Assembly (NCBI GenBank): GCA_029218505.1
Contig: JAQXRL010000379.1
Span: 1 to 33,743 of the forward strand
DNA length: 33,743 nt
Direction: 5' to 3'
From: Eubacteriales bacterium
Lineage (GTDB): Bacteria; Bacillota; Clostridia; Christensenellales; Aristaeellaceae
Part shown: in pieces, positions 32,606-33,095 of the stretch
How positions within the stretch are numbered: the first letter of the stretch is position 1
Layout: every line of letters starts with the position of its first letter
Program-made: the position numbers and the translations under genes
Notes under the pieces: generated by a model
Databases searched by the model: none
The model's input: the letters and a program-made list of their open reading frames with translations, nothing else
Told to the model about the DNA's origin: nothing

Positions 32606-32634
32606 TGTACAATCGAGGTCAGTTGTGTTATAAT
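32606..32634 (+). promoter_or_regulatory. SigA-type promoter TGTACA-N17-TATAAT
   Basis: Hexamers at 32606-32611 and 32629-32634. Confidence 0.72.
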
Positions 32635-32640
32635 ACGGTC

Positions 32641-32756
32641 AGCCCCGATAGAACGATCTTAATCCGTATCCCTCCGGTGGATTTGCTACCGATGCCAGGA
32701 CTCGGTTACTAAGACAGGTCATCGTATGGGCAGACACAATTAGGAGGGTTTTTTCC
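32641..32756 (+). other. Putatively structured 5' leader of the zinc-ribbon gene
   Basis: ~115 nt non-coding between promoter and ATG; CCCTCC (32670-32675) complementary to SD GGAGGG (32743-32748); hairpin CGGTGG-ATTTG-CTACCG; alternative ACCGA/TCGGT pairing. Confidence 0.5.
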
Positions 32757-33050
32757 ATGTTCGAAGACAAGACTTTGGTTTGCCGTGAGTGCGGCGCGGA
32801 ATTCGTTTTCACCGCTTCTGAGCAGCAGTTCTATGCCGACAAGGGCTTCCAGAACGAGCCTGGTCGTTGCCCGGCTTGCCGTGCAGCTCGCCGTCAATCC
32901 AACGGTGGTGCTCGCGGTGGTGAGCGTCAGATGTACGATGTGATCTGCGATGGTTGCGGACAGCCCACCCAGGTTCCCTTCCAGCCCCGCGGAGATCGTC
33001 CGGTGTATTGCCGCGCGTGCTTTGAGGCCCAGCGTCAGAGCCGTTTCTAA
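32757..33050 (+). CDS. Small double zinc-ribbon (four CxxC) protein
   Basis: 97 aa with VCRECG / RCPACR and ICDGCG / YCRACF; TAGGAGGG SD. Confidence 0.9.
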   Translation: MFEDKTLVCRECGAEFVFTASEQQFYADKGFQNEPGRCPACRAARRQSNGGARGGERQMYDVICDGCGQPTQVPFQPRGDRPVYCRACFEAQRQSRF

Positions 33051-33063
33051 GTTGATTCGCCCG

Positions 33064-33095
33064 AAAGGTTCTCGTGAAAGCGAGAACCTTTTTTT
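33064..33095 (+). terminator. Rho-independent terminator of the zinc-ribbon gene
   Basis: AAAGGTTCTCG-TGAAAG-CGAGAACCTTT followed by T run. Confidence 0.95.

Follow-up and report, generated by a model that had tools for sequence, protein, structure and literature searches.

The 5′ leader of the clostridial zinc-finger gene zf_Tbcl, a candidate bistable translational switch

Comparison of the leaders of zf_Tbcl genes suggests that the mRNA 5′ leader in the window (the whole 33,743-nt stretch of DNA analysed here) probably acts in cis as a bistable translational switch. The anti-Shine–Dalgarno (anti-SD) sequence, the strand shared between two competing helices and the Shine–Dalgarno (SD) sequence are conserved before zf_Tbcl, and comparison shows the helix P4 and the SD-sequestering (OFF) hairpin to be kept by coordinated changes. 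A sequence-only reading of this DNA had proposed a translational switch of no known riboswitch class; its anti-SD, the principle of mutually exclusive stems (here from comparison) and the lack of an Rfam class stood, but the specific alternative stems that it named were not the conserved ones.

The leader lies near the end of the window, where the gene order is spoIVA, a CdAMP_rec gene, the DNA polymerase III delta′ gene, a PSP1-domain gene and zf_Tbcl. The last of these (32757–33050, + strand) encodes a 97-residue protein with two treble-clef zinc-binding domains (PF13451, E = 3.2e-25; PF23477, E = 1.1e-19) and an Arg-rich segment; neither sequence nor fold searches found a PDB relative. Upstream lies a sigma-70-type promoter, TGTACA-17-TATAAT with an extended −10 (TG), TGTGTTATAAT (32606–32634, + strand; 10 of 12 matches), which is conserved in relatives, and transcription is expected to start near 32640. 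With the promoter ending at 32634, the leader is ~117 nt long, in agreement with the good promoter and ~115-nt leader described earlier. No intrinsic terminator was found in the leader on the + strand (32640–32756), so control would be at translation, and transcription attenuation was rejected on the same ground. Directly 3′ of the zf_Tbcl stop, a GAGAACC-TTTTTTT hairpin resembling an intrinsic terminator occupies 33050–33095, suggesting that the transcript from the 32606–32634 promoter is monocistronic.

Every motif named in the sequence-only reading was present where it had been placed (all features below are on the + strand). The anti-SD CCCTCC (32670–32675) is, as claimed, the exact complement of the SD GGAGGG (32743–32748), and it is conserved in relatives. 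Two other proposed pairings did not hold up: ACCGA/TCGGT (32688–32692/32702–32706) was 72% paired, with no excess over shuffles and no covariation, and TCTTA/TAAGA (32657–32661/32710–32714) was found in the window's own leader only. Absent from that reading were the main competing helices, P1 (32642–32645/32728–32731) and P4 (32690–32694/32720–32724). The P1 5′ strand, GCCC, is the conserved 5′ end of the leader; P1b, CGAT (32646–32649), lengthens P1 in the window's type by pairing with 32721–32724, and it competes with P4 (85% paired, weak excess over shuffles). P2 joins CCG-TAT-CC (32664–32671), whose pairing takes in the two leading C of the anti-SD, to GGA-CT-CGG (32698–32705); P3 is the hairpin CGGTGG-ATTTG-CTACCG (32675–32691; arms 32675–32680 and 32686–32691). 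The shared switching strand, CATCG-TAT-GGGC or CAUCGUAUGGGC (32720–32731), can pair with either the 5′ end (P1/P1b) or the P4 5′ strand CGATG (32690–32694), part of a stretch that also includes the 3′ arm of P3. P4 is nested inside the anti-SD:SD hairpin, and in a constrained fold of the OFF state it is extended upstream by pairing of TTTGCT (32682–32687) with GGCAGA (32729–32734).

In the proposed ON state, the 5′ end would pair with the switching strand through P1/P1b, P2 and P3 would hold parts of the anti-SD, and the SD would be left accessible or weakly paired. Because P2 and P3 contain anti-SD bases, exposure of the SD is expected in the P1 state. Switching OFF would move the shared strand to the P4 5′ strand, opening P1 and P3, and the anti-SD would then close on the SD around P4. 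A conserved anti-SD, exclusive helices that share a strand and a leader that contains no terminator are the features by which we assign this leader, at the level of sequence, to putative bistable anti-SD switches.

The zf_Tbcl protein occurs in 183 of 200 genomes of the window's family, and 152 loci gave 119 leaders after deduplication on the last 120 nt. A raiA-type sequence was present in 24 of these. Among the remaining 95, a TGnTATAAT-like promoter was found in 92, which were trimmed from there (three could not be trimmed), and most raiA-less zf_Tbcl genes (PF13451 plus PF23477) of the family carry a similar promoter and leader. The 92 leaders typically show, from the 5′ end, (A)GCCC or CCAAGCC, a CCUCC-like element, GGGC or GGUUUGG, and a GGAGG SD. 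Grouped by our own sequence patterns into types A (the window's type) to E, they have P1, P2 and P3 sequences that are nearly invariant inside type A, and a P1–P3 domain whose sequence is almost wholly different between types; conservation of a putative aptamer core is strong inside type A but does not extend across types. P1 has counterparts in the other types (GCCU/AGGC, ACCC/GGGU, CCAAGCC/GGUUUGG and CCAAACU/AGUUUGG). Most invariant bases of the window's type lie in helices, with no large conserved unpaired core, and the protein is conserved far above its leader.

Taken alone, the window's leader is no more stable than its shuffles (z = −0.16), and whole-leader z values, being near zero, were uninformative; the case therefore rests on comparison. 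MAFFT/RNAalifold gave poor structures on mixed types, and we therefore used a covariance model (CM) together with alignment-free tests. The sequence-only reading had tied its proposal to covariation among homologous leaders, and in the CM-fitted alignment of 33 type A and B leaders, a fit that leans towards structure, compensatory changes were found in P3 and P4. The P3 hairpin, already noted in the window, proved conserved, with three pairs changed on both sides (a level reached by 1 of 500 shuffles) and a covariation score reached by none of 500. In P4 (CGAUG/CAUCG), two pairs changed on both sides (10 of 500 shuffles; covariation score, 0 of 500). P2 was 91% paired and covaried weakly (36–57 of 500 shuffles). 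Neither P1 (GCCC/GGGC, 100% paired) nor the anti-SD:SD pairing (98.5% paired) covaried near the window, because both are invariant among the closest leaders. In a wider set, likewise aligned by fitting to the structure, double changes affected 10 of the 13 pairs of P1, P3 and P4, compared with 2.1 in shuffled data.

Given this lean of CM-fitted alignments towards structure, we added tests in which strands were exchanged between leaders and native pairing was compared with exchanged pairing; the test windows finally used were chosen after trying several. For P4, scoring of the best single helix favoured native pairing, at z = 3.9 within type and 5.5 across all leaders (p = 1e-4, non-overlapping windows), and five control pairs from unrelated regions showed no significant excess. 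Swapping arms weakened the whole anti-SD-to-SD (OFF) hairpin (z = −5.9 within type, p = 1e-4; −8.2 overall), as well as its inner part, the P4 region without the SD (z = −4.7 within type, −6.1 overall). For P1, the effect across types was clear with duplex energies (all-cross z = −4.9) and within types marginal at best (p = 0.03 and 0.07 in two tests, not significant in another). The anti-SD swap was significant across types only (within types, p = 0.12 and 0.16), and P2, weak in the window's group, gained no support from swapping. An exact 6-nt SD complement lay 45–105 nt upstream in 28 of 55 representative leaders; dinucleotide shuffles predict 6.3, and none of the 24 raiA-type control leaders had one.

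The two predicted states are not equally favoured in all leaders. Most leaders of types C, D and E had the OFF hairpin as their minimum free energy structure. The window's leader had the P1 state, with OFF predicted to lie 5 kcal/mol above it by nearest-neighbour energies, which leave out pseudoknots and tertiary contacts. For the window, a local GGAGG/UUUUCC pairing is predicted to engage the SD weakly in the P1 state as well. Three leaders (L023, L130 and L132) fit the two-state scheme poorly.

The type A model found one strong copy in the window's own genome, and an order-wide search with it gave strong matches in the window's family only, directly before zf_Tbcl where checked. The type A CM (R1) detects A and B leaders and is too narrow for most of types C, D and E. 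By eye, six leaders from a family of another order (type F) show the same layout in different sequence, including a 7-bp P2, CGGAUUA/UAAUCCG (CGGATTA/TAATCCG in DNA). Here GATAATGGGC can pair with the 5′ GCCCTTAT or the internal GCCTGTTATC; the switching strand GAUAAUGGGC has as its partners the 5′ GCCCUUAU or the internal GCCUGUUAUC, and CCUUCUC stands opposite GAGGAGG. Folding gave the OFF hairpin in most of the six and the P1 state in L191.

Searches against Rfam (4,227 families) gave no match at the gathering cut-off to the window's leader or to those of the relatives scanned, and only non-credible matches to the window's leader at E ≤ 5; the covariance-model search is thus consistent with the earlier view that no known riboswitch class is present. 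We found no description of the leader in the literature searched; the supplements of PMC8040213, a survey of candidate RNAs of the human microbiome whose main text does not mention zinc, lay outside that search and may contain the motif. The best reading is an orphan translational switch, new as a family but of a type already known. Like orphan translational riboswitches, it would be a one-gene 5′ leader with its own promoter, exclusive folds, an SD-sequestering anti-SD and no terminator; it differs from them in that its pairing scheme persists despite strong sequence divergence between lineages.

The same gene is headed by other structured RNAs. Many genomes of the family carry a second zf_Tbcl paralog, and 20 such extra copies (L134–L153; 58–70% identity to the window's protein) all have, by pattern, a raiA-type leader. 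In relatives from the order, too, zf_Tbcl is directly preceded by raiA-type RNA (L024, L026, L027 and L029, listed with L134–L153). The raiA RNA model (RF03072) was positive at four of four other raiA-type loci on which it was run, the remaining loci being assigned by pattern, and gave no match over the window's leader. The raiA RNA, also called ModT, measures about 209 nt and contains two core pseudoknots (PMC11751092); in C. difficile it has been described as abundant and acting in trans (PMC11706538). It also precedes zf_Tbcl elsewhere in Clostridia, a link not found in the literature searched. The window's own genome has one zf_Tbcl match and one raiA RNA (G000:C252:9332-9541, L237), which follows an open reading frame for a ComFC-like phosphoribosyltransferase and precedes one for a putative DNA methyltransferase rather than zf_Tbcl.

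A degenerate tRNA-like element, often located immediately 3′ of a tRNA-Gly(CCC) gene, forms the zf_Tbcl leader in many other Clostridia (L188, L189, L200–L203, L205, L208, L210, L213–L215, L219, L222 and L226). These elements scored 24–43 bits with the Rfam tRNA model, partly under its cut-off of 29, and ARAGORN found no ordinary tRNA among them, calling only L222, with an odd 4-nt anticodon. Another clostridial family has a third, unrelated conserved leader, GTTGCGGAGATTCGC...CCAGGGAAGGGTTTTCT (L178, L181 and L187), with no credible Rfam match for L178 or L187. In L168, L169, L180, L194 and L195, the raiA RNA and zf_Tbcl are separated by another conserved segment, GTTCTGGAGACCGTCACTA or CACCAACACCAGCCT, which appears to be structured. 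The presence of several unrelated structured leaders before one gene family suggests a link between RNA and either the protein or its function. A more speculative extension, which we consider rather unlikely as it stands, is that zf_Tbcl is RNA-binding, that its mRNA acquired the different leaders (switch, raiA and tRNA-like) in different Clostridia, and that the protein or its partners read them all, which would connect zf_Tbcl with raiA RNA.

As to what would trigger the switch, we rank a zinc-finger or other RNA-binding protein acting autogenously ahead of a small ligand or ion, and both ahead of co-transcriptional kinetics or cold. In the autogenous case, the zf_Tbcl protein or a partner would bind the leader and stabilize one fold, a possibility that leads the candidate triggers but is still less likely than not. 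The gene is the only constant among the switch, the raiA RNA and the tRNA-like element that head it, and the two zinc-finger domains, the Arg-rich segment and the far better conservation of the protein than of the leader all fit such a scheme; its RNA binding is putative, however, the protein has no solved relative and the leaders share no obvious binding site. The resemblance to ribosomal-protein and other autogenous leaders is similarly partial: a gene for a small protein of nucleic-acid-binding type lies behind a leader whose structure is kept while its sequence drifts, but zf_Tbcl is not a ribosomal protein.

Less probably, the P1–P3 domain could be an unrecognized aptamer of a metabolite or ion riboswitch, as its near-invariance within the window's type and a riboswitch-like layout, in which the upstream domain and the SD-sequestering hairpin have a switching strand in common, would allow. 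The almost complete replacement of this domain between types does not point to a single conserved aptamer, however; the mostly helical location of the invariant bases in the window's type, where no large unpaired core was seen, also argues against it, and the gene is neither metabolic nor a transporter gene.

An RNA thermosensor, in which heat would melt the anti-SD:SD pairing or cold would favour the P1 state, seems improbable. The SD would be occluded as in RNA thermometers (ROSE and FourU) and the cspA leader, whose two-fold scheme is formally similar. Low sequence conservation is usual in thermometers, which the divergence between leader types fits, and the predicted advantage of P1 over OFF in the window falls from 6.0 kcal/mol at 15 °C to 3.4 at 45 °C, the cold-ON direction. 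In silico, however, SD exposure barely changed between 15 and 55 °C in any type, so that the thermosensor option of the sequence-only reading is weak and a heat-opened thermometer, for which no useful rise on heating was predicted, is not favoured; the FourU and ROSE families gave no Rfam match. A simple thermometer needs no conserved second fold, and many relatives come, by record title, from gut or rumen, where temperature is stable. That short GC-rich complements near the SD arose by chance and were kept by common ancestry, with no switching, is already disfavoured and very improbable: the unexceptional stability of the lone leader and the non-conserved pairings proposed earlier would fit, but the compensatory changes, swap tests permuted inside sequence types and anti-SD enrichment over raiA controls argue against it.

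If the proposed translational switch is real, it would be an unlisted cis-regulatory RNA of uncultured gut and rumen Clostridia, with a scheme kept while the sequence was largely replaced. The zf_Tbcl protein, a widespread clostridial orphan, would then stand out for the structured RNAs, raiA among them, that repeatedly precede its gene. The raiA RNA is among the most abundant unexplained bacterial RNAs, and the connection between zf_Tbcl and raiA would become directly testable.
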